NCBI GenBank assembly: GCA_948471095.1
Contig: CAOKRG010000028.1
Location: 1 to 33,898, forward strand
Reading direction: 5' to 3'
Origin: an uncultured Oscillospiraceae bacterium
GTDB taxonomy: Bacteria; Bacillota; Clostridia; Oscillospirales; Acutalibacteraceae
Length of the DNA stretch: 33,898 nucleotides
The position numbers and the translations under genes were made by a program. This document shows positions 1,793 through 31,597 of this stretch, piece by piece (the stretch's first letter is position 1; each line of letters starts with the position of its first letter). The notes beneath the pieces are model-generated. The model did not search any database and was not told the DNA's origin. It saw only the letters and a program-made list of their open reading frames with translations.

Positions 1793-1857
1793 TAAAGTTT
1801 TTTGAAAATTCTTAAGAAACTTTTTTACAAAAAAGTTTCTTAAGCCGCCGGAGGCCA
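1793..1857 (+). repeat. Short copy of the intergenic hairpin repeat family (copy 1)
   Basis: It contains a long perfect palindrome, CTTAAGAAACTTTTTT (1811-1826) pairing with AAAAAAGTTTCTTAAG (1829-1844), followed by the family signature CCGCCGGAGGCC (1845-1856). The stretch upstream of the palindrome matches the copy at 4676. It lies between two convergent genes and may also act as a transcription stop for rubrerythrin, since the arm carries a run of T. Confidence 0.8.
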
Positions 1858-1869
1858 TTCCCACTACAG

Positions 1870-1909
1870 AAAAAACAAACAGGAGGCTCCCCCCAACGGG
1901 AAGCCCCCT
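1870..1909 (-). terminator. Intrinsic terminator of the serine hydrolase gene
   Basis: On the minus strand a 12-bp stem (AGGGGGCTTCCC against GGGGGAGCCTCCT, with two GU pairs) is followed by GTTTGTTTTTT. It starts about 8 bases after the stop codon at 1917-1919. Confidence 0.85.
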
Positions 1910-1916
1910 TATTTTT

Positions 1917-3446
1917 TTACTTGTTCCCTTCCCAGTACATTTTGGTCTTGGTGTGCACTTCGCCCTCATCCAGGCGGAAGGCCATCCGGGGCTTGTCCAG
2001 CTCGCCCAGGCCCCAGGGCTCGGGAATGGTGGACTCCGCCTCCACCTCCAGCCGGCCGCCCGCAAAGTGGAACCGGAAGCGCTTGCCCGTGGCCATGCGG
2101 CTGTTGCGCAGCTCCACCTCCAACAGGTCCGCCCGCCGCCAGGCCGCATTGGCGCCATAGGGCACGCCGTTTACCAGGCTGGTTGCAAAGTGCCCGCACA
2201 GGCCCAGGTCGATGTCCACGCTCTCCCCGTTCTGCCGGCAGACCAGCTTGGCCTGGTCCCCTTGGAAGCGGAATTCCAGCGCCTCCAGCTTTCCGCCCTG
2301 GGGCTGGAAGCTGCCCGCGCCCCCTACCAGGTCCTCTATGCCGGGCAGTTCGGCCTCGGGGTGATAGACCGCGCCGTCCAGGGAGGCCTCGGCCCCCGGG
2401 TTGCGCATGGGAAGCATGGGGCACAGCTCCAGGCGCTCCAGCCGCTTTTCCAGCCGGTGCTGGGCCTGCCGGTCCTCGGGCAGGGGGCCTTCGGCCATAA
2501 AGGGCAGCAGCTTCTCCCACACAGAGGTGAGCACCGCCTGCAGCCGCATGGAGGCCGAGTGGATCACCAGCACCGCGTCCTGCCTGGTCATTACAATGCC
2601 GTATTGGCCGTAAGCGCCGTCCCCACGGAACACGCCCTCCGGGGCGCAGCGCCAGAACTGGAAGCCGTAGCCCGCCTGCCAATCCGGGTCGCCGCCCCAG
2701 CCGGCCCCCGCGTTGTCGATCTGCTTGGAGGCAGCCAGGTCGAACCACTCCGGGTTCAGCAGCTGTTTTCCCTCCCAGCTGCCCTTGTTGGCCACAAACT
2801 GCACAAACCGGGCCATGTCCTCGATTTTTAGGTACATGCCCGCGCCGCCCATCTCCGTGCCGTCCGGCATGGCCTGGCACTTGACGTCGTCCATGCCCAG
2901 GGGCTGGAAGAGCCGGGGCTTTAGGAACTCCGTCAGCTTCTGGCCGGTCTTTTTGGCGATGACGGCGCTCAGGAGATTGGTACCGGCGGTGTTGTACATA
3001 AAGTGGGTTCCGGGCTCATACACAAAGGGGTGATGCAGGAAGGTTGTAACCCAATCCGCGCTGCCGCCGCTGGCCCACTCAATCTCCGTCTCGTGGCCGC
3101 AGCCCATCATCAGCACATGGCGGACCTGGCATTTCTGCAGGTTCTCGCTGGGGTTCTCCGGAGACTGCTCCGGGAAGATGTCGATGAGCCGTTCGTCCAG
3201 GCTCACGATGCCCTCCTGTACCGCGAAGCCGATGGCCGTGGAGGTCAGGCTTTTGCTAAAGGAGAACATGATGTGGGGGGTCTCCGGGTTGTAGGGGGCC
3301 CAAGAGCCCTGGGCGCAGACCTGGCCGTGGCGCAGCAGCATAAAGCCGTGCATCTCAATGCCGCAGCGGTAGAGCTCGTCCAGCATGTCCACAATGGCCC
3401 CGGAGGGGACGCCCACGCTTTCTGGCGTACAGTGTCGCAGGTTCAT
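1917..3446 (-). CDS. Serine hydrolase of the beta-lactamase (class C / esterase) family
   Basis: A 509-aa protein. The N-terminal 350 residues carry the penicillin-binding fold: SFSK at S62-K65 supplies the nucleophile and base, and YNTAGTN at Y151 is the second motif. A GDGAYGQYG stretch stands where the KTG-like third motif would be. The C-terminal 150 residues are a beta-rich extension often found on such enzymes. No signal peptide is visible, so it is probably cytoplasmic. Members include esterases, D-amino-acid peptidases and self-immunity enzymes, and the substrate cannot be assigned. The start ATG at 3446 has AGAGAGG upstream. It lies 25 bases downstream of the MBL gene on the same strand and may be co-transcribed with it. 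Confidence 0.88.
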   Translation of the reverse strand: MNLRHCTPESVGVPSGAIVDMLDELYRCGIEMHGFMLLRHGQVCAQGSWAPYNPETPHIMFSFSKSLTSTAIGFAVQEGIVSLDERLIDIFPEQSPENPSENLQKCQVRHVLMMGCGHETEIEWASGGSADWVTTFLHHPFVYEPGTHFMYNTAGTNLLSAVIAKKTGQKLTEFLKPRLFQPLGMDDVKCQAMPDGTEMGGAGMYLKIEDMARFVQFVANKGSWEGKQLLNPEWFDLAASKQIDNAGAGWGGDPDWQAGYGFQFWRCAPEGVFRGDGAYGQYGIVMTRQDAVLVIHSASMRLQAVLTSVWEKLLPFMAEGPLPEDRQAQHRLEKRLERLELCPMLPMRNPGAEASLDGAVYHPEAELPGIEDLVGGAGSFQPQGGKLEALEFRFQGDQAKLVCRQNGESVDIDLGLCGHFATSLVNGVPYGANAAWRRADLLEVELRNSRMATGKRFRFHFAGGRLEVEAESTIPEPWGLGELDKPRMAFRLDEGEVHTKTKMYWEGNK

Positions 3447-3470
3447 AACAATTACCTCTCTTTTTAAAAA

Positions 3471-4085
3471 TTAACGCAGGGCGTGCCCGGTGTAAATCTG
3501 CCGGGGCCGCAGCGCTTTGATTCTCTCTAAACTCTTTTCCATCTGTTTCTTATCCTCATAGCACCAGGGCGGGCCCAGCCCCGGCAGGCAGAACATGGCG
3601 TCCCCGGCCAACAGGTCCCGGGAGTCCAGAAAGACCCCCACCGAGCCCGCCGTATGTCCCGGCAGCGCCACCACCCTGCCCTCGATTCCATAGGGCGCCA
3701 GGGACATGCCCTCCTCCAGAAAAACCGAGGGCTCCACCGGCGGTATGGGCGTACCGCGGATGCTCCGGTTGGAGAGCCAGGCAAAGGCCCCGTCCCGGAA
3801 GCCCTCTCCCCGCACGGGCCGCCGGGCCTCGGACAGCAGCTCCGCGTCCTCCCGGCTGACGGCCACGGGGCAGCGGAGCTCCCGGGCGAAATAGGCCGCG
3901 TTCTGGCAGTGGTCAAAGTGGCCGTGGGTCAGCAGAATCAGCTTGACGGCCATGTGGTGGCAGGCGGCTAAGGTATGCTCCCCCAGCTTTTCGGTGCCGG
4001 TATCCACCAAAACGCTGGAGGCCTCTCCCCGCAGCAGGTAGGCCCGGGCCCCGCTGCTGGGCAAGGGAACAATCCGTGTGGGCAT
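3471..4085 (-). CDS. MBL-fold metallo-hydrolase
   Basis: A 204-aa metallo-beta-lactamase-fold hydrolase with all metal ligands: HGHFDH at 54-59, H144 in PGHTAGS, D162 in LAGDAMF and H201 near the C terminus. The size and the GHTAGS context fit the glyoxalase II-like subgroup, which hydrolyses thioesters or similar substrates with two metals. The exact substrate is unknown. The start chosen (ATG 4083-4085) has AGGAGG 7 bases upstream; the upstream in-frame ATG lacks one. It probably forms a two-gene unit with the downstream serine hydrolase. Confidence 0.88.
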   Translation of the reverse strand: MPTRIVPLPSSGARAYLLRGEASSVLVDTGTEKLGEHTLAACHHMAVKLILLTHGHFDHCQNAAYFARELRCPVAVSREDAELLSEARRPVRGEGFRDGAFAWLSNRSIRGTPIPPVEPSVFLEEGMSLAPYGIEGRVVALPGHTAGSVGVFLDSRDLLAGDAMFCLPGLGPPWCYEDKKQMEKSLERIKALRPRQIYTGHALR

Positions 4086-4162
4086 GGCAGACCTCCTGAA
4101 AATCAAGATGCTTTTGAAAGGATGGGTTGGCCTCTGGCGCAGGGGGCCGCCTACACAAGACC

Positions 4163-4236
4163 GTGGGGCTCATGACGTTGGCTCCGCCAAGTCACCCCAC
4201 ACCCTGCCAAGTGCCAACTTCGCGAAGCGAACGTTG
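4163..4236. repeat. Cluster of nested hairpins upstream of the MBL gene
   Basis: Three palindromes lie inside one another: GTGGGG (4163-4168) with CCCCAC (4195-4200), then TGAC (4173-4176) with GTCA (4191-4194), then TTGGC (4178-4182) with GCCAA (4186-4190). A separate hairpin follows, CAAC-TTCGC (4215-4223) with GCGAA (4227-4231) and GTTG (4233-4236). The 3' arms abut with no gaps while the 5' arms are separated by spacers. The rest of 4086-4310 shows no gene. Confidence 0.75.
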
Positions 4237-4310
4237 TAAGCTCCTGGACCGCGTATATTGCCTAATTTTAACGGTCAGAGTAATCGTTTTTCGGCTGTGA
4301 ATACAGATTC

Positions 4311-4593
4311 TAAAAGTTTCGTCCCTCCCGGCTCGGTCGGCGCTAAACGGTCGCTCTACTTGGCTTTGCCAAGTAGCCGGCGACCAGCGCCCTTTTCAAG
4401 AGGTGGACGAGTTATCCAAAGGATAACTCGTGGGTTCTTAGGGGACTTCGCGCAGCGAATGTCGCAAGTCCCGCTAGTTCATTTTTGATGAACTTGGCCG
4501 CCGGAGGGGGAAGATTGCCAGTGGCAATCGTTCTGACCCGACCGACGCGGCAGCGGAGACTCCACTCCGTAAAACTTCAAAAACCGCGCCCTT
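4311..4593 (+). repeat. Intergenic hairpin repeat, long copy with two cassettes (copy 2)
   Basis: In order: TAAAAGTTTCGTCC; a reverse-oriented cassette at 4325-4391; CTTTTCAAGAGGTGG; the palindrome ACGAGTTATCC/GGATAACTCGT (4407-4431); TTCTTAGGGG; GGGACTT/AAGTCCC (4442-4472) holding TTCGC/GCGAA; AGTTCAT/ATGAACT (4476-4494); CCGCCGGAGG (4498-4507); a forward cassette at 4508-4562 headed by GATTGCC/GGCAATC; and ACTCCGTAAAACTTC with CCGCGCCCTTT. The first cassette holds a triple nest: GGCGCT/AGCGCC, GGTCGC/GCGACC and CTACTTGGC/GCCAAGTAG. The left terminal repeat is missing. Confidence 0.9.
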
Positions 4594-4675
4594 TGCGCCG
4601 GAGGGAAAGCTTCCCAATGTGCCGCTCCCCGCCCCGAACCGAGCGCTCAGCACGCGCCTCGCACCAACAATAAGC

Positions 4676-4783
4676 GTGTAAAAGTCTTTGGAGATTCTTA
4701 AGAACCTTTCTTCAGAAAGGTTCTTAAGCCGCAGGAGGCCACTCCGTAAAACTTCAAAAGCCGCGCCCTTTGGACACTCCCCC
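4676..4783 (+). repeat. Intergenic hairpin repeat, short copy (copy 3)
   Basis: It contains the 15-bp palindrome CTTAAGAACCTTTCT (4697-4711) with AGAAAGGTTCTTAAG (4714-4728), then CCGCAGGAGGCC, ACTCCGTAAAACTTC and the right terminal repeat CCGCGCCCTTTGGACACTCC (4761-4780). No cassette is inserted. It ends about 100 bases upstream of the enolase start. Between it and the gene an A/T-rich stretch (4796-4825) may hold the enolase promoter, but no convincing pair of boxes was found. Confidence 0.88.
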
Positions 4784-4811
4784 AAAAAACGCTTCCACAA
4801 AACTAGTATAG

Positions 4812-6110
<1,299 letters not shown>

Positions 6111-6127
6111 AAACGCCGCCCCAAGAC

Positions 6128-6173
6128 AAAGCGTGGAGCCCGGAGGGACAGTCCCCCGGGCTCCACGCTTTTT
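6128..6173 (+). terminator. Intrinsic terminator of enolase
   Basis: A long GC-rich stem, AAAGCGTGGAGCCCGG (6128-6143) with CCGGGCTCCACGCTTT, is followed by a T run. It begins 17 bases after the enolase stop. Confidence 0.95.
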
Positions 6174-6213
6174 CATTTCTAGTATCCGAATCGCTTCAAA
6201 AGGTGCGCCCTTG

Positions 6214-7242
6214 TCAGTCCTCCTGCTCCCACTTGAGCACCTGGCCGGTTTGGGCGTCGATCCCGCATTCATACTCCGCCCAGCCGTTGCGCAGCTCGAT
6301 TTCATAAACCGGCCGCCCATCGTCCCGGTCCAGTTCGCACTTGACCACCACGCTGCCGCTGGGCGCCCTGCCTAAAGCGGTCTCCTTGGCCTGGGCCGCC
6401 GTTATGCCAGTCCCCGGGGCCGGGGTGTCCTGGGGCCCCAGCTGGTCGTGGGAATAGGACCGGATGGCCCCCGTGGTTACATCCACATCGTACTCATAGG
6501 CGATGTTTCCATAGACGAACTCGATCTCGTACTCGTTTTCCTTCCGGTCCAGCTGGGCCTTGGTAAAGGTCACCTCCGCCGCAGTCAGCCCCGCGTGGTC
6601 CAGGGCGATCTCCTTGGCGCCCTCCAAGGTAAGGGCCTGGCCCGGCGCGGGAGTGGAGCCGGGCTGGTATACGTTGCTCACGCTGAAGCCGTTGATGCCG
6701 CCCAGGGCGTCCACATGGACCTCGTACTTTTTGCCGCCGCAGAGGAACTCTACCTCGTATTCCCGGTCCTCCACGTCCAGCTCCACCGTGGCCAGGGACA
6801 GCTCCCCCTGGGCTCCCTGCTTCATGGCGTATTGCCTGGCATTCTGGACGGCCTGGTCCTCGGGAATCATCGCGCCGCCCCAGGGGGCGTCCACCAGCGG
6901 GCCCGGGTCCGTGGGCTGGGGCTCAAACGAAGGGTCCGGGGCGGGCGCGGCTTCCGCCGTCACCTTGGCGGTGCGGGTGGCGGCGTCATAGTCCACCTGC
7001 ATGCCCGCCGCCTCGCACAGGGCCCGAATGGGCGCGTAGGTGGTGCCCTCATAGGAGAAGACCGGCACCGCCCGGCCGTTCACGTCCTTGGGCGTGAAGG
7101 CCTTGCCGTTAAACTCCACCTTGATGCTGTCGTTGATGGTAATTTTGCGGTTGGCCCCCAAAACCTGGACCCCGATCCCCGCAGCCAGCAGGCAGCAGAG
7201 GAAGCCGCTGAGAAAGCCCGTGTAAAACTTTTTGTGTTTCAT
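6214..7242 (-). CDS. Exported protein with a copper-amine-oxidase-type N domain and three PepSY repeats
   Basis: A 342-aa protein. Residues 1-30 form a signal peptide or membrane anchor (KHKK followed by a hydrophobic stretch). Residues about 34-95 match the copper amine oxidase N-terminal (stalk-like) domain, including VNGRAVPV and YAPIRALCEAAG. Three PepSY domains follow at about 126-190, 204-266 and 280-342. Each has an amphipathic helix and a strand pair ending in a DxxTG-type turn (DALGG, DVTTG, DAQTG). Proline-rich linkers separate them. PepSY domains are thought to bind or inhibit peptidases, or to act in the envelope, but no activity is established here. The start ATG at 7240-7242 has AGGAGGG upstream. 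It is a single gene outside the cytoplasm. Confidence 0.88.
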   Translation of the reverse strand: MKHKKFYTGFLSGFLCCLLAAGIGVQVLGANRKITINDSIKVEFNGKAFTPKDVNGRAVPVFSYEGTTYAPIRALCEAAGMQVDYDAATRTAKVTAEAAPAPDPSFEPQPTDPGPLVDAPWGGAMIPEDQAVQNARQYAMKQGAQGELSLATVELDVEDREYEVEFLCGGKKYEVHVDALGGINGFSVSNVYQPGSTPAPGQALTLEGAKEIALDHAGLTAAEVTFTKAQLDRKENEYEIEFVYGNIAYEYDVDVTTGAIRSYSHDQLGPQDTPAPGTGITAAQAKETALGRAPSGSVVVKCELDRDDGRPVYEIELRNGWAEYECGIDAQTGQVLKWEQED

Positions 7243-7310
7243 TTTGTTCCCTCCTGTGCTTATTATGTGTATGAGAACCCATATCAATAGGGGTTTACAC
7301 CTGTTTCTTA

Positions 7311-7432
7311 AGCGCGACAGTAAAAGTTTTGTCCACTTTTTCAAAAGTGGTGGGGGTGGAGGGGGCAAAGCCCCCTCCCCGCCGGAGGCCACTCCGTATG
7401 ACTTCAAAAAACCGCGCCCTTTAAATGCCCCC
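7311..7432 (+). repeat. Intergenic hairpin repeat, short copy (copy 4)
   Basis: GCGCGACAGTAAAAGTTTTG is followed by CCACTTTT/AAAAGTGG (7333-7350) and GGAGGGGGC/GCCCCCTCC (7358-7378, loop AAA). Then come CCGGAGGCCACTCCGT and CTTCAAAAAACCGCGCCC. The second hairpin takes the place of the CTTAGGGGC/GCCCCTAAG hairpin of other copies. No cassette is inserted. Confidence 0.88.
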
Positions 7433-7436
7433 ACGC

Positions 7437-7952
7437 TTATGAACCGGACAGGGCCAGCCATTCAAAGGCCAGCCGCTCCGCCCCGTCCTCCAGGTGGATG
7501 ATTCCCCGGTAGGAAAAGCCGTTCTTTTCCATGGCCCGCCGCATGGGCCGGTTGTCCCGGTGGGTGTCGCCCCGCAGGACGGAAACGCCCCGCCGCTCCG
7601 CCTGGCGCTTCAGCTCCTGGAAAAACAGCCCGGCCGCGCCCCGGCCCTTGATCTGGTTCGAGACCGCCACCCGGTGCAGGTAGCCGTACTCTCCCCAGCC
7701 CTGCCAGGCCCCCCGCTCTATGGCCCGGTAGGTGGGCTCCTCGCCAAAGGCCAGGCAGGCGGTACCCACCACCAGTCCGGCCTCCTCCAGCACATAGGCC
7801 GTACCCGCCGCCACGTCCTGGGCGGCAGCGGAGGCGTCCGGGTAGCCGTCCTGCCACTGGTCCACCCCGGCGGCTTTCAGGGCCGTCCGGGCCTCATCGT
7901 ACAGCGCGGCCATGGCTTCCACGTCCCTGGCCGCGGCTTTGCGCAGTTCCAT
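7437..7952 (-). CDS. GNAT-family N-acetyltransferase
   Basis: A 171-aa acetyltransferase that uses acetyl-CoA. The acetyl-CoA loop is visible as NQIKGRGAAG around residue 100, preceded by the beta-4 strand LHRVAVS and followed by the beta-5 region and KNGFSYRG near the C terminus. The substrate is unknown. The start ATG at 7950-7952 lies one base beyond the TGA of the clpE-like gene (TGACATG), and its GGAGG site sits inside that gene, so the two are very likely translationally coupled. Confidence 0.87.
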   Translation of the reverse strand: MELRKAAARDVEAMAALYDEARTALKAAGVDQWQDGYPDASAAAQDVAAGTAYVLEEAGLVVGTACLAFGEEPTYRAIERGAWQGWGEYGYLHRVAVSNQIKGRGAAGLFFQELKRQAERRGVSVLRGDTHRDNRPMRRAMEKNGFSYRGIIHLEDGAERLAFEWLALSGS

Positions 7953-7953
7953 G

Positions 7954-11101: not shown

Positions 11102-11102
11102 G

Positions 11103-17186: not shown

Positions 17187-17296
17187 AAGAATCCCTCCAG
17201 TCTGACGATAGTGTGTCCGCCCTTTTAGAAAAAATACAAAACCCCACTGGCCATCCTGTCTTCTTAATATTAACGCTTTCGGAGGCCCCTCCTTAT

Positions 17297-17607
17297 GGGT
17301 GTGTCCAAAACACGCAGTTTTCGAAAAGTAATACGGAGTGGGGTCTCGCCTGCCGGCTCGGTCAGTTCGCAGCTTGTCTGCCACTGGTAGACGCTCACCC
17401 TCTGGCGGCTTAGGGGCTTCTGGGTCTCGCCTGTCGGCTCGGTCGGTTCGCGGCATGTCTGCCACTGGCAGACGCTCACCCCCTAAGAACCCACGAGTTA
17501 TCCTTTGGATAACTCGTCCACTTCTTGAAAAAGTGGACAAAACTTTTACTGTTGCACTCAGCGAACTTTTCTCTTGTTAAAATTAAAACGCGCGTTTTGG
17601 GCACTCC
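17297..17607 (-). repeat. Intergenic hairpin repeat, full-length copy with both terminal repeats and two cassettes (copy 5)
   Basis: This is the most complete copy, 311 bp. The ends are inverted repeats: GGGTGTGTCCAAAACACGC at 17297-17315, and AAAACGCGCGTTTTGGGCA running into CTCC at 17585-17607. In minus-strand order it holds GCAACAGTAAAAGTTTTG; CCACTTTTTCAAGAAGTGG; ACGAGTTATCC/GGATAACTCGT (17493-17517); CTTAGGGG/CCCCTAAG (17409-17416 with 17480-17487) split by a cassette (17422-17480); CCGCCAGAGG; a second cassette (17341-17400); and CACTCCGT. The cassettes carry GTCTGCC/GGCAGAC and GTCTGCC/GGTAGAC. The catalase-side flank (17187-17296) shows no gene. Confidence 0.92.
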
Positions 17608-17624
17608 GCCTCCTTTCCCTTTCC

Positions 17625-18534: not shown

Positions 18535-18891
18535 AAAACGCGCGTTTGAACAAGAAGAAACCTCCCTGAGCGCAACAATAAAAGTTTCGTCATTCTCGAC
18601 TGCCGTCTCGGTCGGCGCTGGACAATCGCCACTGGCGATTAGCGCCCTTTTCAAAGGTTGCAGGGTTCTTAGGGGGCGACAATCGCCAGCTACTTGGCAA
18701 AGCCAAGTAGAGCGATTCTCCCGTCGCCGACCAAGCCGGTAGGCGAGACCCAGAGCCCCGCAAGTTCATCTTTGATGAACTTGGCCGCCGGAGGGGGAAG
18801 ATTGCCTGTGGCAATCGTTCTGACCCGACCGAGCCGACAGGCGAGACTCTACTCCGTAAAACTTCAAAAACTGCGCCCTTTGGACACTCCC
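18535..18891 (+). repeat. Intergenic hairpin repeat, longest copy with three cassettes (copy 6)
   Basis: The left end is AAAACGCGCGTTT (18535-18547) and the right end CTGCGCCCTTTGGACACTCC (18871-18890). Cassette 1 (18592-18646, reverse) holds GGCGCT/AGCGCC around AATCGCC/GGCGATT. Cassette 2 (18675-18751) lies in the CTTAGGGG loop and nests GGCGAC/GTCGCC, AATCGC/GCGATT and CTACTTGGC/GCCAAGTAG. CAAGTTCATC/GATGAACTTG (18761-18783) follows, then CCGCCGGAGG, and cassette 3 (18795-18849) headed by GATTGCC/GGCAATC. It fills the whole space between the phosphorylase gene and the S24 regulator promoter. Confidence 0.92.
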
Positions 18892-20311: not shown

Positions 20312-20329
20312 CGTTCGAGAGGAAAAAAC

Positions 20330-20506
20330 ATGGAAAAATTCATTCAATTTGTGGACGGACTGAAAACCCGGGGCTGCCTAAAATTTACCGGGGCCCTGTG
20401 CGCCTATTCCCTCATCGATTCCCTTTGCGGGGGAGAGCGCATCCGCTACATCCTGATCTGGCAGATGCTGGTCCTCTGCGGCTGCATCCCCACGCGCCGG
20501 CGCTGA
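20330..20506 (+). pseudogene. Truncated duplicate of the DUF3021 gene
   Basis: It encodes 58 residues that align with the first 55 of the next gene: GLKTRGCLKFTGALCAYS against [18 protein letters not shown], and LIWQMLVLCGCI against [12 protein letters not shown]. After CGCI the frame breaks and ends as PTRRR. In the next frame, PALKKRLVI resembles VLKRPSY of the intact gene, so an internal deletion with a frameshift followed by loss of the rest is likely. It keeps its own ATG and GAGAGGA site and could still make a two-helix peptide. Confidence 0.8.
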
Positions 20507-20534
20507 AAAAGCGCCTAGTCATATAGGAGGAAAA

Positions 20535-20987
20535 ATGATGAAAAAGTTTTTACACATGATCGGCGAACTAAAGACCTGGGGCTGCCTGAGCTTTACCGGT
20601 GCCCTGTGCATCTATTCGTTTATCGACTTTCTAACAGGCGGCGAGTACATCCGCCACACCCTGGTCTGGCAGATGCTGGCCCTGTGCGGCTGCATCAGCC
20701 TATTGCAGTACATTTTCTTTTCCGGCCAGGTGCTCAAGCGGCCCAGCTATTTCCTGCGCCTGGCCGTCTTCTGCGGCCTCACCCTGGCGCTTTGCTGCGG
20801 CTTTGCCTGGGCGTTCCGCTGGTTCCCCCTGGAAAACGCCGGAGCCTGGGCCAGCTTTGCGGTCATCTTCTTCCTGGCGTTCCTGGTTTTCACCCTGGGG
20901 TTTGAAATTTATTTTCGGGCTGTGGGAAAAAAGTACGACGCGCTGCTGGGCCGCTGGCGGGCCGGGGAAAAGGACCGTGAAAAGTAG
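20535..20987 (+). CDS. DUF3021 family membrane protein
   Basis: A 150-aa protein with four membrane segments, about 18-36, 46-66, 74-95 and 102-128. Its place directly behind the LytTR gene marks it as the membrane partner that restrains the regulator. What releases it is unknown. AGGAGG precedes the double ATG (20535 or 20538). Confidence 0.88.
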
Positions 20988-23734: not shown

Positions 23735-23756
23735 AAAACGAAGTTTTTTAGCTCCC

Positions 23757-23879: not shown

Positions 23880-24015
23880 TTTTTGCCTGGGCGGTGGTTT
23901 GTCCAACGCGAAAAGACGCGGCATTCCCCCACCCAGCCCCACCGTTAAAAGCACCTAACCTCATATAGCCTCCCGCCGTTCCCCAAGCATCTTGTCCCCA
24001 CCCCGCGCAACGGCG

Positions 24016-24088
24016 TAAAAAGTCTTTGAAGATTCTGCAAGTTCGCGGAGCGAACTTGACCGCCGGAGGCCAAGACCCCCTTTTGAAA
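24016..24088 (+). repeat. Intergenic hairpin repeat, short copy (copy 7)
   Basis: GTAAAAAGTCTTTGAAGATTC matches the start of copy 3. The central palindrome here is CAAGTTCGC (24038-24046) with GCGAACTTG (24050-24058), replacing the CTTAAG palindrome, and CCGCCGGAGGCC follows. The right end is lost or diverged. Confidence 0.8.
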
Positions 24089-24104
24089 GGAAGGTAACAA
24101 AATT

Positions 24105-24587
24105 ATGACCAATTCTGAACGCGCGTCTTATATCCGCGGCTTGATGGACGGCATGGAGCTGGACCCCAACGCCAAGGAGACCAAGATTTTCAACGCCATT
24201 GTGGAGCTGCTGGACGATCTTTCCGTCTCTGTGGAGGAGATGGAGGACGAGTACGGCGAGCTGGCCGAGCAGGTGGACGAGATCGACCACGACCTGGGGG
24301 CCCTGGAAGAGGACTTTTACGGCTTGGAGGATGAGGAGGAAGGCTGCGGCTGTGGCGGCGGCTGCCACCACCATCACCACCATGACGAGGACGATGACGG
24401 CATGGACATGGCGTATGGCGTCAACTGCCCCAACTGCGGGGCGGACATTCCCCTGACCGACGAGGTCCTGGACGCGGAAGAGATCATCTGCCCCGGCTGC
24501 GGCGAAAAGCTGGAGTTTGAGTTCGAGGACGAGGATGACGAGGACTTCGCGGAAGAGGACGAGGAAGAGCCCGACGGCGAAGAGTAA
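24105..24587 (+). CDS. CD1247-type zinc-ribbon protein
   Basis: A 160-aa very acidic protein. Residues 1-75 are helical and probably coiled-coil, matching the N-terminal domain named after Clostridioides difficile CD1247. A metal-binding linker follows: C81, C83, C87 and H88-H93 in sequence, then DEDDD. A zinc ribbon uses C108/C111 and C129/C132. The tail is almost all glutamate and aspartate. The function is unknown. It sits behind efp with AAAGGAAGG about 11 bases upstream and its own terminator. Confidence 0.85.
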   Translation: MTNSERASYIRGLMDGMELDPNAKETKIFNAIVELLDDLSVSVEEMEDEYGELAEQVDEIDHDLGALEEDFYGLEDEEEGCGCGGGCHHHHHHDEDDDGMDMAYGVNCPNCGADIPLTDEVLDAEEIICPGCGEKLEFEFEDEDDEDFAEEDEEEPDGEE

Positions 24588-24598
24588 GAACCAAAAGA

Positions 24599-24634
24599 GA
24601 AGCCGCAGGAGTGAAAAGCCCCTGCGGCTTTTTT
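24599..24634 (+). terminator. Terminator of the CD1247-type gene
   Basis: AGCCGCAGG (24601-24609) pairs with CCTGCGGCT (24621-24629), followed by TTTTT. Confidence 0.92.
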
Positions 24635-24646
24635 GTGTTTATCTGT

Positions 24647-25471: not shown

Positions 25472-26493
25472 TTCTGTACGTCAATCAGCACCTTCATGGT
25501 GGACTCCCGGTTGGCGTCGATGTACTGGTAAGCCGCCAGGTACTCCTGGAAGGGGAAGCGCTTGGAGATCAGCGGGGCCAGCTGGACCTTGCCCCCGGTA
25601 ACCAACTGGATGGCGGTCTCATAGTCCTCGCTCCGGTACATCATAGAGGTGTTCAGGTCCAGCTCGTGGTCGTTGAGCACCGCCAGGTCGATGTGGGCCT
25701 CCTTCGCGAAAACCGCCACCAAAATGATGGCGCTGCCCTTGCGGGCGTGCCGGATGGCCTGGCCCATGGTGACGTCGTTGCCAGCGCAGTCGTAGATAAA
25801 GTCGCACTTGTCCGGCCCGAAAAAGTCTGCCAGGGTCTGGCCGAAATCCTCGGTCTTGGTGTTGACGGCATGGTCCGCGCCGCACTCCTTGGCCTTTTCC
25901 AGGCGCAGATCGCTCACATCGGTGATCATCACCCGCCGGGCACCCAGGCCCTTGACCGCCTGAGCCGTCAAAATACCGATGGGCCCCGCGCCCAGGACGC
26001 ACACGTCCTTCCCGGCCAGGTCTCCGGCCTGGCGGGCCGCGTGGACGGCCACGGCCAGGGGCTCGATCATGGCGCCCTCCTCCAGGTTCATGGAGTCCGG
26101 CAGGGGGGTAACCTTCTTGGCGTCCACCGCGAAATAATGGGAGGCCACGCCGGTGGTCTGGAAGCCCATGACCTTGAGGCTTTCGCACAGGTTATACTTG
26201 CCGTGGCGGCAGGGCCAACACTGGCCGCACACCACCTGGGGCTGAATGGTCACCTTCTGGCCCAGGCTCAGGCCGGTTACGCCCGGGCCCAGCCGCTCCA
26301 CCAGGCCGGAGACCTCGTGGCCCTGGGTGACGGGATAGCTGGTGAAGGGGTGCTCCCCGTGGTACACGTGGATGTCGGAGCCGCACACGCCGATCTCCAT
26401 AATCTTGACCAGAACCTGCCCCTCCCGGGGCTGGGGGACAGGGACCTCCCGGAATTCGATCTGCCCGGGTGCGGTCATAACTTGCTGAAGCAT
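25468..26493 (-). CDS. Zinc-dependent alcohol/polyol dehydrogenase (MDR superfamily)
   Basis: A 341-aa NAD(P)-dependent enzyme. Catalytic zinc: C37, H59, E60 and E144. Structural zinc: C89, C92, C95 and C103. The Rossmann motif is GAGPIG (168-173), and D192 after the second strand (ITDVSD) favours NAD. It is closest to the sorbitol, L-iditol and threonine dehydrogenase group, probably acting on a sugar alcohol or sugar acid. The start ATG at 26493 has AGGAG upstream. It overlaps the RNA methyltransferase gene by four bases. Confidence 0.92.
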   Translation of the reverse strand: MLQQVMTAPGQIEFREVPVPQPREGQVLVKIMEIGVCGSDIHVYHGEHPFTSYPVTQGHEVSGLVERLGPGVTGLSLGQKVTIQPQVVCGQCWPCRHGKYNLCESLKVMGFQTTGVASHYFAVDAKKVTPLPDSMNLEEGAMIEPLAVAVHAARQAGDLAGKDVCVLGAGPIGILTAQAVKGLGARRVMITDVSDLRLEKAKECGADHAVNTKTEDFGQTLADFFGPDKCDFIYDCAGNDVTMGQAIRHARKGSAIILVAVFAKEAHIDLAVLNDHELDLNTSMMYRSEDYETAIQLVTGGKVQLAPLISKRFPFQEYLAAYQYIDANRESTMKVLIDVQK

Positions 26494-26522
26494 GGTATCA
26501 CTCCTGACTGTATTTTGTGGGG

Positions 26523-26673
26523 CTACCGTTTTTTGAAGTTTTACGGAGTGGCCTCCGGCGGCTTAGGGGCTCTGCCCCTAAGGACCCCGCCACTTTTGAA
26601 AAAGTGGACAAAACTTTTACTGTTGCGCTTAGGGGGCTCTCTCTATAATAAAACACGCGTTTGGACGCTCCCC
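26523..26673 (-). repeat. Intergenic hairpin repeat, simple copy with a possible target duplication (copy 8)
   Basis: In minus-strand order: the terminal repeat GGGAGCGTCCAAACGCGTG, GCGCAACAGTAAAAGTTTTG, CCACTTTT/AAAAGTGG (26590-26607), CTTAGGGGC/GCCCCTAAG (26562-26582, loop 3), CCGCCGGAGGCC and ACTCCGTAAAACTTC. No cassette is present, so this copy shows the plain scaffold. CTACCG occurs at 26523-26528 and again at 26673-26678, a possible target duplication seen only at this copy. Confidence 0.9.
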
Positions 26674-26706
26674 TACCGCCCGAATGCCTTAGAGTCTGAA
26701 CAGCCT

Positions 26707-27222
26707 CTAGCCCGCCTCTTTCAAGCTTTCCACCCGGGCGGCAATATACCCCGGAACCTCCTCCCGGGGGATGTCCAGGGCCGCGGCCAGCTCGCCGAAA
26801 AGCAGGTCTTCCCCCTGCTTGAGAAAACGCTCGTCCACGCTGCCAAAGCGCCGCTTCTGCTGCTGCATAGACTCCTTTTTGGCGTGGATGGACATGGTCA
26901 GCTCAATCCAGTCCTGGCAGTCGTGGCGCTCCAGCAAGGCCTCGTAGTGGGCGGCCAAATCCCGCGCCGCCCGGCCGTGGAAGGCCTGACAGTGCAGGCT
27001 GGGAATGCGTGCGATGAGCCGCTCGGCCTCCTCCCGGCTGATGATGGGGCGCATGAACACCTTGTCAGAATCCACGGGCACGGAGATGACGCAGGCCTTA
27101 TAAAGGGGATGAAGCACATAGTAGAGGCGCTGCCCCACGCCGGGAAAGTCCTGGACCTTGATCTCCTCAACCCGGCACACGCCGGTGCCGCCGTACTGAA
27201 CCAACTGTCCTACCTCATACAT
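26707..27222 (-). CDS. CarD family transcriptional regulator
   Basis: A 171-aa protein. The N-terminal Tudor-like RNA polymerase-binding domain (1-60) starts MYEVGQLVQYGGTGVCRVEEI and includes the strands YYVLHPLYK and ISVPVDSD. The helical DNA-binding domain follows (about 70-165). CarD binds the polymerase beta subunit and stabilises open promoters. The start ATG at 27220-27222 has AGGAGG upstream. Its own promoter has a palindrome over the -10 box, and the leader of about 175 bases can fold. Confidence 0.93.
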   Translation of the reverse strand: MYEVGQLVQYGGTGVCRVEEIKVQDFPGVGQRLYYVLHPLYKACVISVPVDSDKVFMRPIISREEAERLIARIPSLHCQAFHGRAARDLAAHYEALLERHDCQDWIELTMSIHAKKESMQQQKRRFGSVDERFLKQGEDLLFGELAAALDIPREEVPGYIAARVESLKEAG

Positions 27223-27400
27223 AATACTTCCTCCTTTTTTCTTTATCCCCTGCAGCCGCTCCGCTCTGTCTACAAGTAAGGAGCAAATCGGTTTCGGTTT
27301 GTTTGCCAGCCCCCTACCGCTGGCCTCTTTGCTTCGGTTACTCCTCAAAAACGAGCGCTTCACGCGAAGGGCAAAAACCCGTAATGTACGCTTTGTGTAC
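27223..27400 (-). promoter_or_regulatory. Structured 5' leader of the CarD gene
   Basis: In the minus-strand RNA, GGAGTAA can pair with TTTGCTCC at the base, and GCCAGC...GCTGGC forms an inner stem. No known riboswitch class was recognised. The structure is proposed by eye only. Confidence 0.35.
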
Positions 27401-27430
27401 ATTATAGCACAATTTAAGAAGAAATGTAAG
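27382..27430 (-). promoter_or_regulatory. Promoter of the CarD gene with an overlapping inverted repeat
   Basis: On the minus strand CTTACA (27425-27430), 18 bases, TATAAT (27401-27406) with an upstream TG (extended -10). TAATGTAC/GTACATTA (27382-27404, 7-base spacer) is a perfect 8-bp inverted repeat covering the -10 and the transcription start. Confidence 0.65.
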
Positions 27431-27475
27431 AGATAAATTCAAAAAAAGGAAGGAAAAATTAAAATATTTTTTCAG

Positions 27476-27874
27476 TCACCACACGCCGTTGGTAAACCAG
27501 TGGGGCAGAAGGGCCAGCTCGTCTAAAATAGCCATGATTTTTATCAAAATGCCGATGGCGGAAACCACTATGCCCGCCACGGCCAGGCCCCGGGTGCGGT
27601 CCCCCCGAAAGCCCAGAATGGACGCAGCCAGCCCCAAAGGCAGCAGCAGAACGCTGGCGAAGAAGTAGCCCAGCACCGAAGAAACAAAGCCCAGCACCGT
27701 GGAAACGTCCATCCAGGTAAACACCTTACGGGGCATGGGAGGCAGAGGCGCCGCCGGCCGGGGCAGAAAAGCGGGAGGCCCGGAGGGCGCGGGCGGCGGA
27801 AACACCGTTCCGCAGCGGGGGCAGGCAGGGCTGCGGTCCTCATTGAGCTGGCCGCAGACAGGGCATTGCTTCAT
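27476..27874 (-). CDS. Zinc-ribbon protein with two membrane segments (DUF4190-like)
   Basis: A 132-aa protein. The N-terminal zinc ribbon has C4, C7, C18 and C21 (CPVCG and CPRCG). A proline-rich linker leads to two membrane segments, about 57-88 and 95-115, with the glycine-rich LGFRGDRTRGLAVAGI turn between them that is typical of DUF4190. The function is unknown. It starts 4 bases after the GNAT stop with only a weak AGAAAGAAG site, so it is probably coupled to that gene. Confidence 0.75.
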   Translation of the reverse strand: MKQCPVCGQLNEDRSPACPRCGTVFPPPAPSGPPAFLPRPAAPLPPMPRKVFTWMDVSTVLGFVSSVLGYFFASVLLLPLGLAASILGFRGDRTRGLAVAGIVVSAIGILIKIMAILDELALLPHWFTNGVW

Positions 27875-27878
27875 GAAA

Positions 27879-28367
27879 TCATCTTCTTTCTGATAAGAGG
27901 GGGCACACCATAATGTACTCCTCCTCGTTTTCATCAACGGTCTGAAAGCCGGCCCGCCGGTACATGCGGGCAGCATAGTTGCGCTTCTGCACCGCCAGGG
28001 AGGCCTGGGCGTAACCGGCTTGGCGGAGCCGGTCCAGCAGGGCGGCCAGCAGGGCGGTCCCCAGCCTTTGGCCCCGGAATTCCGGAAGCAGGGAGATGGC
28101 CAGGGAGGGAGTCTCATCGTCCACATGGCCGTAATCGTTCATAATGCGCGCCCAGGCCGCTCCAACCACCCGGCCCCCGGCCTCGACGGCCAGGGCCCGG
28201 TCGTGGGGGGATTGGCCGAAGCCGTCCACATAGACCCGCAGGGCCGGTTCCCGCAAGATGCTCCGCGCAGGCGGCTGCTGGCCCGCTGGCACGAAAATGG
28301 CTTGGTAGAGAAACTCTTCCAAAAGATCATGCTCCCATGGGCGCAGGGCCCGAATGACGTAATTCAT
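27879..28367 (-). CDS. GNAT-family N-acetyltransferase
   Basis: A 162-aa acetyltransferase. The acetyl-CoA loop is FRGQRLGTALL, the preceding strand is SLAISLLPEF, and the C-terminal NYAARMYRRAGF is the beta-5/alpha-4 signature. The substrate is unknown. The start chosen is the ATG at 28365-28367 with GGAGG 5 bases upstream. It is followed closely by the zinc-ribbon gene. Confidence 0.88.
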   Translation of the reverse strand: MNYVIRALRPWEHDLLEEFLYQAIFVPAGQQPPARSILREPALRVYVDGFGQSPHDRALAVEAGGRVVGAAWARIMNDYGHVDDETPSLAISLLPEFRGQRLGTALLAALLDRLRQAGYAQASLAVQKRNYAARMYRRAGFQTVDENEEEYIMVCPLLSERR

Positions 28368-28432
28368 AAGTACCTCCAAGTGTTTTTTATTGTTAACGCT
28401 CGGAGAAGAAGCCGCACATAGCAAAGTCTCCT

Positions 28433-28861
28433 TTACAAGTGGATTTCTTTTTCCATCATCAGCTCGTCGTTGGCGGTATAGCCCGCGTTCCGGTACAGGG
28501 CTTGGGCCGGGGCGTTCCGCCGCCCGGTGAGCAGCGTGAATTCGGAAGCGCCGAACTTTTCCGCGCAGTAATCCTCCAAAAACGCCAGCATGGCCCTGGC
28601 CAAGCCCCTGCGGCGGCAGGCCGGGGAAACGAACACCTCCGTGACCTCCACGGGAGGAGATTGGTAGCAGAAGGAGCGCTTCACCTGGGCGCAGGCAAAG
28701 CCGGCCAAAGCCCCGTCCACCTGGGCCACAGCCACAACCTCCTGGGCGTTGGCGGCCAAGGCGGCGGCTATCGCCTCCACGGGGGCTCCGCCGGGGCCGT
28801 TGAATCGCTCGTTTAGTTGGTAGAGCTGGGGGGCGTCTTGGGGCGTGGCGAGGCGGATCAT
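28433..28861 (-). CDS. GNAT-family N-acetyltransferase
   Basis: A 142-aa acetyltransferase with strand VTEVFVSPAC, acetyl-CoA loop RRRGLARAML and signature NAPAQALYRNAGY. It resembles small-molecule or antibiotic N-acetyltransferases of the AAC(6')-like type in outline only. The start ATG at 28859-28861 has AAAGGAG upstream. It is in tandem with the unrelated-in-detail GNAT at 27879-28367. Confidence 0.88.
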   Translation of the reverse strand: MIRLATPQDAPQLYQLNERFNGPGGAPVEAIAAALAANAQEVVAVAQVDGALAGFACAQVKRSFCYQSPPVEVTEVFVSPACRRRGLARAMLAFLEDYCAEKFGASEFTLLTGRRNAPAQALYRNAGYTANDELMMEKEIHL

Positions 28862-28994
28862 GGCAGGGCTCCTTTCTGAGGGGGTTGCGTTTTTAGGAGT
28901 GCTGTGAAATATTACTCGCACAGTTAGCAGTCTATAGACCTCTTGCGAAATGGCGGAGAGCTATTACCCCAGCACCAAACGATGGAAAGCAAAG

Positions 28995-29026
28995 TCGGGA
29001 CTGCGTCCCGAAGGGGCCTACGGCCC
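28995..29026. repeat. Two small hairpins beside repeat copy 9
   Basis: TCGGGAC/GTCCCGA (28995-29011) and GGGCC/GGCCC (29014-29026), both with three-base loops, as in the inserted palindromes of the repeat family. Confidence 0.6.
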
Positions 29027-29040
29027 AAGAAATTATTATT

Positions 29041-29154
29041 AAGGCCTCCGGCGGCTTAGGGGCTCTGCCCCTAAGAACCCCGCAACCTTTGTAAAGGTTG
29101 ACGAAACTTTTCCTGTTGCGCTCAGGGCGCTTTCTTCTTGTTAAAACTCGCCTC
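29041..29154 (-). repeat. Intergenic hairpin repeat, simple copy (copy 9)
   Basis: In minus-strand order: GAGTTTTAACAAGAAGAAAG, GCGCAACAGGAAAAGTTTCG, CAACCTTT/AAAGGTTG (29083-29100), CTTAGGGGC/GCCCCTAAG (29055-29075, loop 3) and CCGCCGGAGGCC. It lies directly beyond the stop of the MFS gene. The right terminal part is missing. Confidence 0.88.
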
Positions 29155-29157
29155 CCT

Positions 29158-30447
29158 TTATTTCTGTTTTGCAGCCTGCCGCTGGCCGGCCAGCAGCAGC
29201 GCCAGGCCCACCAGGAACAGCACCGCCAGGCTGATGACGCCCAGGGAGTCCCGGCCCGTCAGCTGGGTGAACAGGGCCACCAGCATGGGGCCGATGACCG
29301 CCGCGAACTTGCCGAAAATGTCAAAGAAGCCAAAGTACTCGTTGGACCGCTCGGCGGGAATCAGCTTGCCGAAATGGGACCGGGAGATGGCCTGAATGCC
29401 CCCCTGGACCGTGCCCACCAGAAAGGCCATGCACCAGAACAGCACCAGGGAAAGCTGCAGGGCCGCCGGGTCGTCCGGGTGGTTCTCGATGTTAAAGCCC
29501 ATAAAGAAGCCCACCACCGTAATGAAGAAATACATGGCCACCGCGCCGCACAGGGCCTTCAGCGCCCCGATCTTCCCGGCCAGCCTGCCAAACAAGATGG
29601 AGAAGGGCACCGCCACGATCTGGGTCATCAGCAGGGCCAGAATCATGCTGATGTTGTCCAGGCCCAGCTTGGAGCCATAGGAGGTGGACACGGAGATGAT
29701 GGTGCCCACGCCGTCGATGTAGAAGAAATACGCCACGATAAACAGGAAGATGTGCTTTTGGGCAAAAATGTCCTTGGCGGTGCGGAGCAGGTTGGAGAAG
29801 GTGGAGCGCACCAGGTTCTTCTGGGGCTCAATGTAGTGAACCTGCCGTACATTGCGCAGGAAGGGGATGCTGAACACCGCCCACCACAGGCTGGTCAGCA
29901 GAATCACCAGCTTGAAGGCCAGCATATTGTCCATGCCCATCACCAGCAGAATGACGATGGAGAGGATGAAGGGGATGGTGCTTCCGCCGATGTACCCCAT
30001 GGCGTAGCCCCAGGAGGAGACCCGGTCCATGCGCTCGTTGGTGGTCACGTCGGTGAGGAAGGAGTCGTAAAACAGGCAGGAGCCGGAGAAGCCGATGTGG
30101 GAGAGCACATAGCCTACCAGCAGCATGCGGTACTCGTCGAACAGGGCGCTGGTAAGGGTGAACAACACGCCGATGGCCAAAAAGCCGGCAAAAAGCCGCA
30201 TTTTGTGCCCCTTATGGTCCGCCAAGGCACCCAGCACCGGGGCCAGAATGGCCACCACAAAGGTGGAGATGGAGGTGCCGTAAGACCAGAGGACCAGGTT
30301 ATCCGCCCCGTTGGCGGCGCAGACGTTTCCGAAATAGATGGGAAAGATAACCGCCAAAATGTTTGTGGCATAGACGGAATTGGCCCAGTCGTACATGATC
30401 CAGCTTTTTTCGGTTTTGGTGAACTTCTTATCGTTGGCATTTGCCAT
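29158..30447 (-). CDS. MFS transporter, UMF1 (Atg22-like) family
   Basis: A 429-aa membrane transporter with about 12 membrane segments. The family signature near the N terminus is MYDWANSVYATNI (residues 18-30), and RSHFGKLIPAERSNEYFGFFDIFGKFAA lies in the second half. Relatives include the yeast vacuolar amino-acid effluxer Atg22; the bacterial substrate is unknown. AAAGGGG lies about 9 bases before the ATG. It is a single gene. Confidence 0.9.
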   Translation of the reverse strand: MANANDKKFTKTEKSWIMYDWANSVYATNILAVIFPIYFGNVCAANGADNLVLWSYGTSISTFVVAILAPVLGALADHKGHKMRLFAGFLAIGVLFTLTSALFDEYRMLLVGYVLSHIGFSGSCLFYDSFLTDVTTNERMDRVSSWGYAMGYIGGSTIPFILSIVILLVMGMDNMLAFKLVILLTSLWWAVFSIPFLRNVRQVHYIEPQKNLVRSTFSNLLRTAKDIFAQKHIFLFIVAYFFYIDGVGTIISVSTSYGSKLGLDNISMILALLMTQIVAVPFSILFGRLAGKIGALKALCGAVAMYFFITVVGFFMGFNIENHPDDPAALQLSLVLFWCMAFLVGTVQGGIQAISRSHFGKLIPAERSNEYFGFFDIFGKFAAVIGPMLVALFTQLTGRDSLGVISLAVLFLVGLALLLAGQRQAAKQK

Positions 30448-30681
30448 AGGGCAACACCCCTTTCGGAAATATCATCTCATATTTTAGCCCAATTAGCAAT
30501 ACCTTTTGTAGATATATTTTTCAAAAAAAGGCAAAACGCGCAAAGGAAGCGGGAAAGCGGCCGCGCCCCACCCGTCTCTAAACTTTTTCCCAATCCTGCC
30601 GACTTTCTTATTATAGAGAAGCCCGCCTGGCGCATGTTCTCTTTTGCCTTGCCAGCGGCGGGAACGGAGGAGAGATTTTTT

Positions 30682-31344
30682 ATGAGTATTTCCATTCTCG
30701 ATCAGACCGGACGCGTTTCTCAAATGAAATCCGCCCGCTGGGCCCCGCCCCGGCCCGCCGGGAAACCGGAGCAGGCCCCGGACCAGGACCGGGCCTCCAT
30801 CTCCCAAGCGGGGCGGGACTCCTTGGAAGCGGCGGAGGAGCCGTCCCCCCTGGAACGGGCCCTTCAAAACGCCTCCCAGGAGCAGATCCAGGGCTGGATG
30901 GCGGACTGGTCCGCCCAGCATCAGCTGGAGGTCAACTGGGACGCCGCCGTGGACCCGGACCACAGCATATACGCCAAGGCCTATATGGAGTCGCTGGCAA
31001 GCCAGCTGGACCAATGCCGCCGGACTGTGGAGGCCTATTATCAGGAAGGGCACCAGGAAAACCTGCGCTTTTCCAACCCCTACAACCATTTGGTGGAAAA
31101 GTACCAGTACTCCGGCTCCCCCTATTTCCGCGGCGATTGGAGCGAAGCCCAGCGGGCCATGGCCTTCCGGCAGGAGCGGGCCCTTTTGTGGGGCGGCCGG
31201 GTGGCCCTCAACGACCCCTGGGCCCTGGCCTCCAGCGGGGGCGTGCCCAGCGGCGAGGCGGTGGAATCCGCCGCCCGCCAAGCGGCCCGGGACGTGCTGG
31301 ATGGGCTGATCGCCCAGTATAAAAGGGAGCATGGGATAGAATAA
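30682..31344 (+). CDS. Hypothetical protein of 220 aa, no recognised domain
   Basis: I do not recognise this protein. Residues 1-60 are low-complexity and proline/glutamine-rich. Residues 60-130 are helical and hydrophilic (SPLERALQNASQEQIQGWMA). Residues 130-220 hold aromatic-rich stretches such as NPYNHLVEKYQYSGSPYF and a helix ending ARDVLDGLIAQYK. There is no signal peptide and no membrane segment. GGAGGAGA lies about 8 bases before the ATG at 30682. An in-frame extension far upstream is only the shadow of the MFS gene. The 30448-30681 space shows no gene. Confidence 0.75.
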   Translation: MSISILDQTGRVSQMKSARWAPPRPAGKPEQAPDQDRASISQAGRDSLEAAEEPSPLERALQNASQEQIQGWMADWSAQHQLEVNWDAAVDPDHSIYAKAYMESLASQLDQCRRTVEAYYQEGHQENLRFSNPYNHLVEKYQYSGSPYFRGDWSEAQRAMAFRQERALLWGGRVALNDPWALASSGGVPSGEAVESAARQAARDVLDGLIAQYKREHGIE

Positions 31345-31362
31345 GAGCGCCCCAGCCAGCTC

Positions 31363-31597
31363 GGGGGCGTGGCCAAACGCGCGTTTTCAGAAGGCTCCCT
31401 AAGCGCAACATTAAAAGTTTCGTCCACCTTTTCAAAGGTGGCAGGGTCCTTAGGGACGGAGTCCCTAAGCCGCCGGAGGGTGAGCGTCTGCCGGGTACTT
31501 GGCTTGCCAAGTACAGCAGACCAAGCTGCGAACCGACCGAGCCGGCAGGCGAGACCCCTTCTAACACTTCCACAACACCGCGCCTTGGGCGCTTCCC
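31363..31597 (+). repeat. Intergenic hairpin repeat, full copy with terminal repeats and one nested cassette (copy 10)
   Basis: The ends are inverted repeats: GGCCAAACGCGCGTTTT (to 31387) and CACCGCGCCTTGGGCGCTTC (to 31597). Between them: GCGCAACATTAAAAGTTTCG, CCACCTTT/AAAGGTGG (31424-31441), CTTAGGGAC/GTCCCTAAG (31449-31469), CCGCCGGAGG, then a cassette at 31479-31558. In the cassette, GTCTGC/GCAGAC (31486-31521) carries GTACTTGGC/GCCAAGTAC (31495-31514) in its loop, and the constant tail follows at 31535. Confidence 0.92.

Follow-up and report, generated by a model that had tools for sequence, protein, structure and literature searches.

Miniature inverted-repeat transposable elements (MITEs) of bacteria are mostly known as near-uniform copies. 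As described in the cited sections of PMC2229807 and PMC3049150, the families RUP, Correia/NEMIS, Nezha and ERIC are small, intergenic, structured and high-copy, with terminal inverted repeats (TIRs) and target duplications. Here we report a repeat family that is like them in all these respects, found in a 33,898-nucleotide stretch of an uncultured Oscillospiraceae bacterium (the whole of contig CAOKRG010000028.1, our C28, called the window below) and throughout the draft genome to which it belongs (2.52 Mb in 83 contigs, 86.6% complete). We consider it likely that these repeats are a large family of non-autonomous DNA transposons, that is, MITEs, which insert with 9-bp duplications, have interiors that are mosaics of hairpin-filled slots, may change by breakage and repair at the hairpin tips, and are probably selfish.

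Other described repeats resemble this family in part. BOX elements of Streptococcus, compared here by description and not by sequence, are likewise modular with exchangeable inner parts, and in S. suis different end modules combine with common inner modules (PMC3049150, sections cited). Repetitive extragenic palindromes (REPs) tagged GTAG or CGTC are also short and intergenic, with (C/T)GTC beside the stem (PMC3733652, sections cited). The hairpin-forming repeats of mitochondria, as far as the cited part of PMC2800124 describes them, share with our family single, double and multiple hairpins, an intergenic position and the lack of a known function.

Size, ends and insertion sites of the family

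The original prediction, made from the window alone, was of ten MITE-like copies or partial copies on one hairpin scaffold. We built a covariance model (R1) of their double-hairpin core from seven copies (82 positions, 19 pairs), four of which are the window copies at 7311, 26523, 29041 and 31363. R1 finds at least 150 core matches in the 2.5-Mb genome at expectation values (E) up to 2e-8, so the repeats are not confined to the window, and it finds further matches in the genus and the bacterial family. In a pattern search of the genome, the core pattern CTTAGGGG..CCCCTAAG occurs at 51 places and its reversed control at none; the TIR pattern RGGARYGKCCAAA occurs at 82 places and its control at one. 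From these counts the repeat family is real. The frequency first proposed, one copy per 3.4 kb, holds locally in the window but not genome-wide, where the lower bound on the count gives about one per 17 kb.

In the DNA that was fetched around copies (coding fraction 0.76 by a home-made codon-bias gene caller), 112 distinct core copies were placed. All 112 are intergenic, in either orientation, with no overlap of a predicted gene, and all ten window places likewise lie outside genes, as had been proposed for both position and orientation. The neighboring genes are tandem for 73 cores, divergent for 24 and convergent for 10, and five cores lie at a stretch edge; intergenic regions of at least 60 bp in the same DNA, copy-holding regions included, are tandem in 129 cases, divergent in 38 and convergent in 25. 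Between tandem genes, 38 elements share the strand of the genes and 35 lie on the opposite one, so strand preference is absent.

The TIRs of the family are 13 bp long (GGGAGTGTCCAAA). At a cut-off of at least 10 of 13 letters, a left TIR is present in 40 of the 112 placed copies, a right TIR in 38 and both in 28. The 9-mers flanking these 28 agree on average at 6.6 of nine positions, compared with 3.9 when they are re-paired and 4.7 in the best of 1000 shuffles. Adding 20 stretches picked for TIR matches gave 48 TIR pairs, five of which pair the same DNA in another way and were set aside. The remaining 43 distinct TIR-bound elements span 123–508 bp; 27 of them have a 9-bp duplication at 7/9 or better, and nine have a perfect one (examples of duplications are TGAGGTTCC at L009, CTGTTTATC at L146, CTGCTTTAT at L152 and TTGTGCTAT at L102). 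These results show that TIR-bound elements insert with a 9-bp target duplication.

Sites without the element were seen at two loci. At L009 (1127–2092), three near-identical 5S rRNA genes lie in a row on the same strand, with a MITE in one of the spacers; the filled spacer and the next one align, with some substitutions near the site, and the filled one adds the 165-bp element and one 9-mer. The genes on either side of the 508-bp element (L145) encode an ABC transporter and a MarR-type regulator; measured from one BLAST end to the other, 577 bp separate them here. We inspected 20 of 30 fetched loci of relatives for this site, of which 13 were measured and six, because of strand, were not; the gaps in the 13 are 117, 54, 44, 89, 89, 55, 48, 34, 4, 120, 138, 104 and 225 bp, and none of them contains a TIR match at 10/13. 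Two equivalent gaps, in genomes G021 and G011, carry other small hairpins when inspected by eye, so hairpin repeats have come to this site more than once. The G011 gap (L257, 2463–2689) carries a different long hairpin repeat at the place where the 508-bp MITE sits here.

Since TIRs, 9-bp duplications, an empty 5S twin and 13 relatives without the 508-bp element are all found, we take the repeats to be a non-autonomous MITE family, and the MITE-like reading first put forward is backed by the same evidence. Every MITE feature examined here is present, except that no partner element is known; high A+T, a usual feature that is not required, is absent, the mean G+C of the 43 elements being 0.53 against 0.61 in the fetched DNA.

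Copies in the window and their nested interiors

With filters off and a match threshold of E < 0.01, R1 recovers eight of the ten proposed window copies, whereas the other two (about 1793 and 24016) score at chance level. The features are as follows, with the R1 match in brackets.

17297..17608, minus strand: TIR-bound nested MITE of 312 bp; TIRs 11/13 and 12/13; fold z −4.83; modules m3, m5 and m6 (17488–17559, minus, E 3e-9)
17288..17296: target duplication on the low side, CCTCCTTAT; 7/9 against the other side
17609..17617: target duplication on the high side, CCTCCTTTC; 7/9 against the other side
31363..31597, plus strand: MITE with a weak right TIR and a nested module after CCGCCGGAGG; TIRs 11/13 and 9/13 (31401–31482, plus, E 6e-25)
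26528..26672, minus strand: MITE with the left TIR retained (12/13) and the right end lost (26549–26630, minus, E 2e-27)
7298..7432, plus strand: MITE copy with GGAGGGGG/CCCCCTCC as hairpin 2 and degenerate ends (7310–7391, plus, E 2e-25)
29035..29152, minus strand: core with its head, the tail lost (29042–29123, minus, E 2e-26)
18535..18891, plus strand: expanded MITE with modules in three slots; exact right TIR at 18879–18891, left TIR lost (18568–18695, plus, E 6e-4)
4300..4620, plus strand: expanded MITE with modules m2, m3 and m5 and degenerate ends; 91% over 129 nt to 18754–18882 (4300–4386, plus, E 3e-3)
4664..4783, plus strand: sister-class copy with a single long hairpin; exact right TIR at 4769–4781 (4672–4741, plus, E 6e-4)
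1785..1862, plus strand: sister-class partial copy; 90% like the 4676 copy over 30 nt (1785–1857, E 0.16, alone non-significant)
24003..24072, plus strand: sister-class partial copy; head as in the 4676 copy, by eye (24003–24072, E 0.7, alone non-significant)

The TIRs proposed for the 17297 and 31363 copies are both found; a target duplication was not seen for the 31363 copy. Because, by eye, the 1793 copy has its hairpin and CCGCCGGAGG tail in common with the 4676 copy, and the 24016 copy its head GTAAAAAGTCTTTGAAGATTCT, we place these two with it in a sister class. In this class, seen at window 1785–1862, 4664–4783 and 24003–24072 and at L149 (1001–1269), a head GTAAAAGTCTTTGrAGATTCT or TTTGATCCAAAC hairpin replaces the double hairpin, and the same TIRs sometimes enclose it (L149, L150). 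The window also contains two tandem repeats: at the contig end (1–354), a G+C-rich 108-nt unit in three direct copies that are 99% alike, with palindromes of its own and, as far as we saw, separate from the MITE, and at 20319–20696 two tandem copies of a 170-nt unit, 75% alike, which span two short predicted genes that Pfam does not match.

Simple elements of the family, mostly 153–169 bp long, consist of a head, hairpin 1 (CCACCTT-TTCA-AAGGTGG and variants), hairpin 2 (CTTAGGGGCAGAGCCCCTAAG and variants), CCGCCGGAGG and a tail. Two heads and two tails occur among the 43 TIR-bound elements in all combinations (aa 18, ab 7, ba 4, bb 8; six not assigned). Fixed slots are filled either by a plain hairpin or by one that is opened for further hairpins; the original prediction had not recognized that the long copies are nested mosaics. 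Our slot expression parses 82 of the 112 copies and leaves 30 unparsed; in 67 of the 82 a perfect hairpin of at least six pairs closes the slot, in 20 forms, and by this strict rule 15 are without one. Module m3 is placed between hairpin 1 and GGGTTCTTA (or close variants) in 14 of 14 places, and m1 adjoins CCGCCGGAGG in 11 of 11. A 56-nt module ending GACCGAG.CGG.AG.CGAGAC sits within the tip of hairpin 2 (CTTAGGGG[56]CCAAAGCCCCTAAG, at L030), and in other copies the CCAGTGG tip of modules of this type is replaced by ACTTGGC..GCCAAGT hairpins. Between the flanks GGGGGAA and GTTCTGA, the 26 expression matches comprise nine stems of GATTG/CAATC (one with a mismatched arm), five of GCTTC/GAAGC, five of GGTCC/GGACC and seven of unrelated sequence. 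Stems thus change on both arms while the tip between them stays conserved.

The core shows strong covariation. In its alignment of 111 distinct rows, pairing holds in 97.5% of the pair cells and 15 of the 19 pairs are changed on both sides; none of 500 shuffles reaches the observed value in any of the five measures, and slid versions score far lower. With helix 2 excluded, 232 cells show a change to another Watson-Crick pair, compared with 17 that are G-T and 17 that are mismatched. One pair is C-G in 72 rows and A-T in 38, with a single odd row. DNA folding compared with shuffles gave z values of −16.25 for the 508-bp element, −5.74 for the 165-bp element and −4.83 for the window element at 17297.

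Occurrence in relatives and the search for a partner

The exact core pattern was found at seven loci in records of Acutalibacter sp. 1XD8-33, an Oscillospiraceae metagenome-assembled genome and Clostridia metagenome-assembled genomes, and in no viral contig. One locus of genome G021, in the part printed, is identical to a locus of 1XD8-33 (L038 and L068), so that Acutalibacter is probably the genus concerned. R1 has matches in 16 of 24 other genomes of the genus (2 to at least 118 each) and one weak match in one of 15 genomes outside it. Of 150 genomes sampled evenly across the bacterial family, 16 have matches at E up to 1e-6, and two of these 16 belong to the genus. Among the 25 family-wide loci (L178–L202, two of them from this window's genome or G010), no TIR is found at 11/13; among 28 loci of genus relatives, both TIR ends are present in five and one end in one. 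A narrower pattern of TIR words has 73 places here and 11, 10, 1, 6, 8 and 0 in six relatives. Since the core occurs elsewhere without TIRs and TIR words are so much more frequent here, the core is by these comparisons more widespread than the TIR form, and the latter has undergone a strong expansion in this lineage.

In the 18 of 21 loci that were printed, one of them from the genus, the core outside the genus often leads into further hairpins, a number of which have a CCGGkGG tip. At L183, L186, L188 and L199, from other genera, the core leads into chains of up to five or six hairpins in which the CCGGkGG tips are conserved and the stems differ. These chains have no Rfam match, and we know of no name for such a family.

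A TIR-plus-CGCG pattern in six viral contigs, three of them the same sequence, was judged to be chance words. The 165-bp element has no match among plasmids, and among phage records it matches only with 34 nt of hairpin 1, in two records. These are MT838876.1 and MT839063.1, unannotated phages from human faeces, whose 34 nt are like hairpin 1 at 94% and 91%.

No Rfam family reaches the gathering score in the window elements, and at E up to 1 the elements in 13 loci remain without a match; Rfam reports in these loci just 5S rRNA and one Gut-1 RNA that adjoins a copy without lying inside it. At L187, Gut-1 RNA (RF01706) scores above the gathering score at 1263–1341, roughly 160 nt upstream of a repeat that resembles the core. 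The original prediction knew of no description of the family, and we likewise found no published description in the literature searched, with most subscription journals and ISfinder outside its scope.

As had been noted, no transposase is nearby: a Pfam scan of all 35 proteins predicted in the window gives no match to a transposase family, and three of them are without any match. A partner transposase with the TIRs of the family was not found in searches for four DDE families, one of them without a working control. PF00872, of IS256 type, is absent from this genome and matches in 6 of 29 genus genomes; the 13 fetched loci have no facing pair of TIR-like words. PF01609, also absent here, matches in 12 of the 29, and loci L203–L232 have no TIR at 11/13. 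PF12762 matches in none of the 29, this genome included, while its control matched in one genome. ISLre2 elements make 9-bp duplications, and PF06782 was searched for this reason; it matches in none of the 29, but neither did its control. In six relatives, a search for exact TIR words gave four pairs that face each other, all 132–157 bp apart and so too close for a gene. In G023, a genome in one contig of 3.8 Mb, there are 20 matches to DDE_Tnp_1, several sets of them with identical scores, and in this genome there are none.

Explanations and comparison with known repeats

The following scheme would explain the family best. Whole elements have inserted into intergenic DNA with 9-bp duplications, and the enzyme was most probably a DDE transposase acting in trans. 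The interior is a row of slots. A slot contains either a plain hairpin or one that has been opened, at the tip or at the foot, to take in another, with nesting several levels deep; the copies are mosaics of slot contents. Hairpin tips may be fragile through cruciform extrusion, nuclease cleavage or stalled replication; broken tips may be repaired from other copies, by which modules and ends would be exchanged by recombination, and copying of one arm from the other would restore perfect stems. From the sequences we infer this exchange and arm-to-arm copying; together they would account for the fixed slots, the mixed ends, the swapping of stems around tips that stay conserved, and the fact that no duplications are visible around inner modules. 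The elements are probably selfish, and any effects on neighboring transcripts would be a by-product.

Several points weigh against this scheme. Recombination and arm copying enter it by inference only. Sixteen of the 43 TIR-bound elements are without a duplication at 7/9, and the single 9-mer of the empty 5S spacer, CGAAACTCC, fits the duplication at just 5/9, from which we take the twin spacers to have already diverged. The core also exists without TIRs (none at the 25 family-wide loci; both ends at only 5 of the 28 genus loci), so that it either spread by other means, at least in part, or lost its ends. A TIR pair enclosing an open reading frame was not seen with exact patterns in this genome, which is 86.6% complete, or in six relatives. 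With regard to the covariation, the alignment was fitted to the covariance model, which favors pairing, and the changes counted are cells and not events, inflated by inherited stem types that copies have in common.

A more tentative proposal, to which we give clearly less weight than to the MITE scheme as a whole, is that the inner hairpins are a self-propagating palindrome system carried by the MITE, entering hairpin tips without duplication and having both arms rewritten by intrastrand template switching. If so, new perfect palindromes of growing depth would be bred independently of the transposase that disperses the elements, and the starting point would be a double-hairpin unit of greater age that is found here and there across the bacterial family.

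It is also conceivable, though unlikely, that the inner modules are small mobile elements which insert into hairpin tips, each by an enzyme of its own, with the MITE as their vehicle. Module m5 occurs in at least three slots and in both orientations, one module lies within the tip of hairpin 2 (L030, L113), and 24 of 37 distinct places of m5 and 33 of 54 of m6 lie outside detected TIR pairs. However, many of these outside places are still within end-less core copies, which weakens the argument, and m1 (11/11) and m3 (14/14) are each restricted to a single slot, unlike free insertion. No duplication was seen around inserted hairpins in the fetched stretches (375 kb), to which the module scan was restricted; these were chosen around copies, and free modules elsewhere could be missed.

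Spread as REP-like palindromes by a RAYT (Y1/HUH) transposase, with the TIRs incidental, is less probable again. The unpaired (C/T)GTC before hairpin 1 is nearly invariant over 111 rows, the core occurs without TIRs in other genera, and there is one Y1_Tnp match in this genome; published CGTC tags are often TGTC, with stems of 8–9 bp and loops of 4–5 (PMC3733652, sections cited). This explanation leaves the TIRs and 9-bp duplications unaccounted for. In addition, Y1_Tnp is found in 9 of 29 genus genomes but in none of the copy-rich G019, G005, G023 and G015, and the tag is not conserved in other genera (CGCC, GGCC, GCTC). The stem opens with C-G in 111 of 111 rows and not with A-T at positions 1 and 2, whereas A-T pairs at the stem start are almost invariable in CGTC REPs according to the cited part of PMC3733652. 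The family thus lacks two REP features, the A-T stem start and the Y1 link, and the tag is kept here and not in other genera.

The least probable reading is that selection maintains the elements as functional RNAs or as terminators of transcription and that the covariation reflects selection on RNA: covariation is strong, folding deep and the position intergenic, but strand preference is lacking, gene contexts resemble background, G-T intermediates are rare, the window has no Rfam family at gathering score, and of its 57 terminator-like sites (32 + 25) none is hairpin 1 or hairpin 2. Terminator-like sites do touch copies at 1796–1780, 18887–18873, 29111–29130 and 31366–31350.

The sister copies of the family, at least 150 in one genome, hold many of the steps from a plain two-hairpin element to a 508-bp tree of nested hairpins, so that the birth, growth and exchange of palindromes can be traced by comparison alone. 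The change of both stem arms around fixed tips and between fixed flanks is also a warning: covariation is usually taken to mark a functional RNA, yet it can arise in apparently selfish DNA. Repeats of this kind that are not listed could break assemblies and draw false RNA-gene calls in gut bacteria.

The family also differs from each of the described systems. The mitochondrial repeats are organellar; in the cited part of the source (PMC2800124), those of the sponge Vaceletia have conserved stems and variable loops, whereas in our family it is the stems that vary and the tips that stay conserved, and neither TIRs nor a fixed duplication is mentioned there. Unlike REPs, as the cited sections of PMC3733652 present them, our elements have TIRs and fixed 9-bp duplications, do not keep the tag or the A-T start, and show no Y1 link that we could see. 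Relative to RUP, Correia/NEMIS, Nezha and ERIC, as the cited sections present them, they have a TIR, a 9-bp duplication and a sequence of their own (PMC2229807, PMC3049150), reach 123–508 bp through nested hairpins, are not A+T-rich and have no known partner. BOX elements, in the cited description, vary mainly in the number of tandem boxB units (PMC3049150), whereas in this family the modules lie inside hairpin tips and the stems are swapped.

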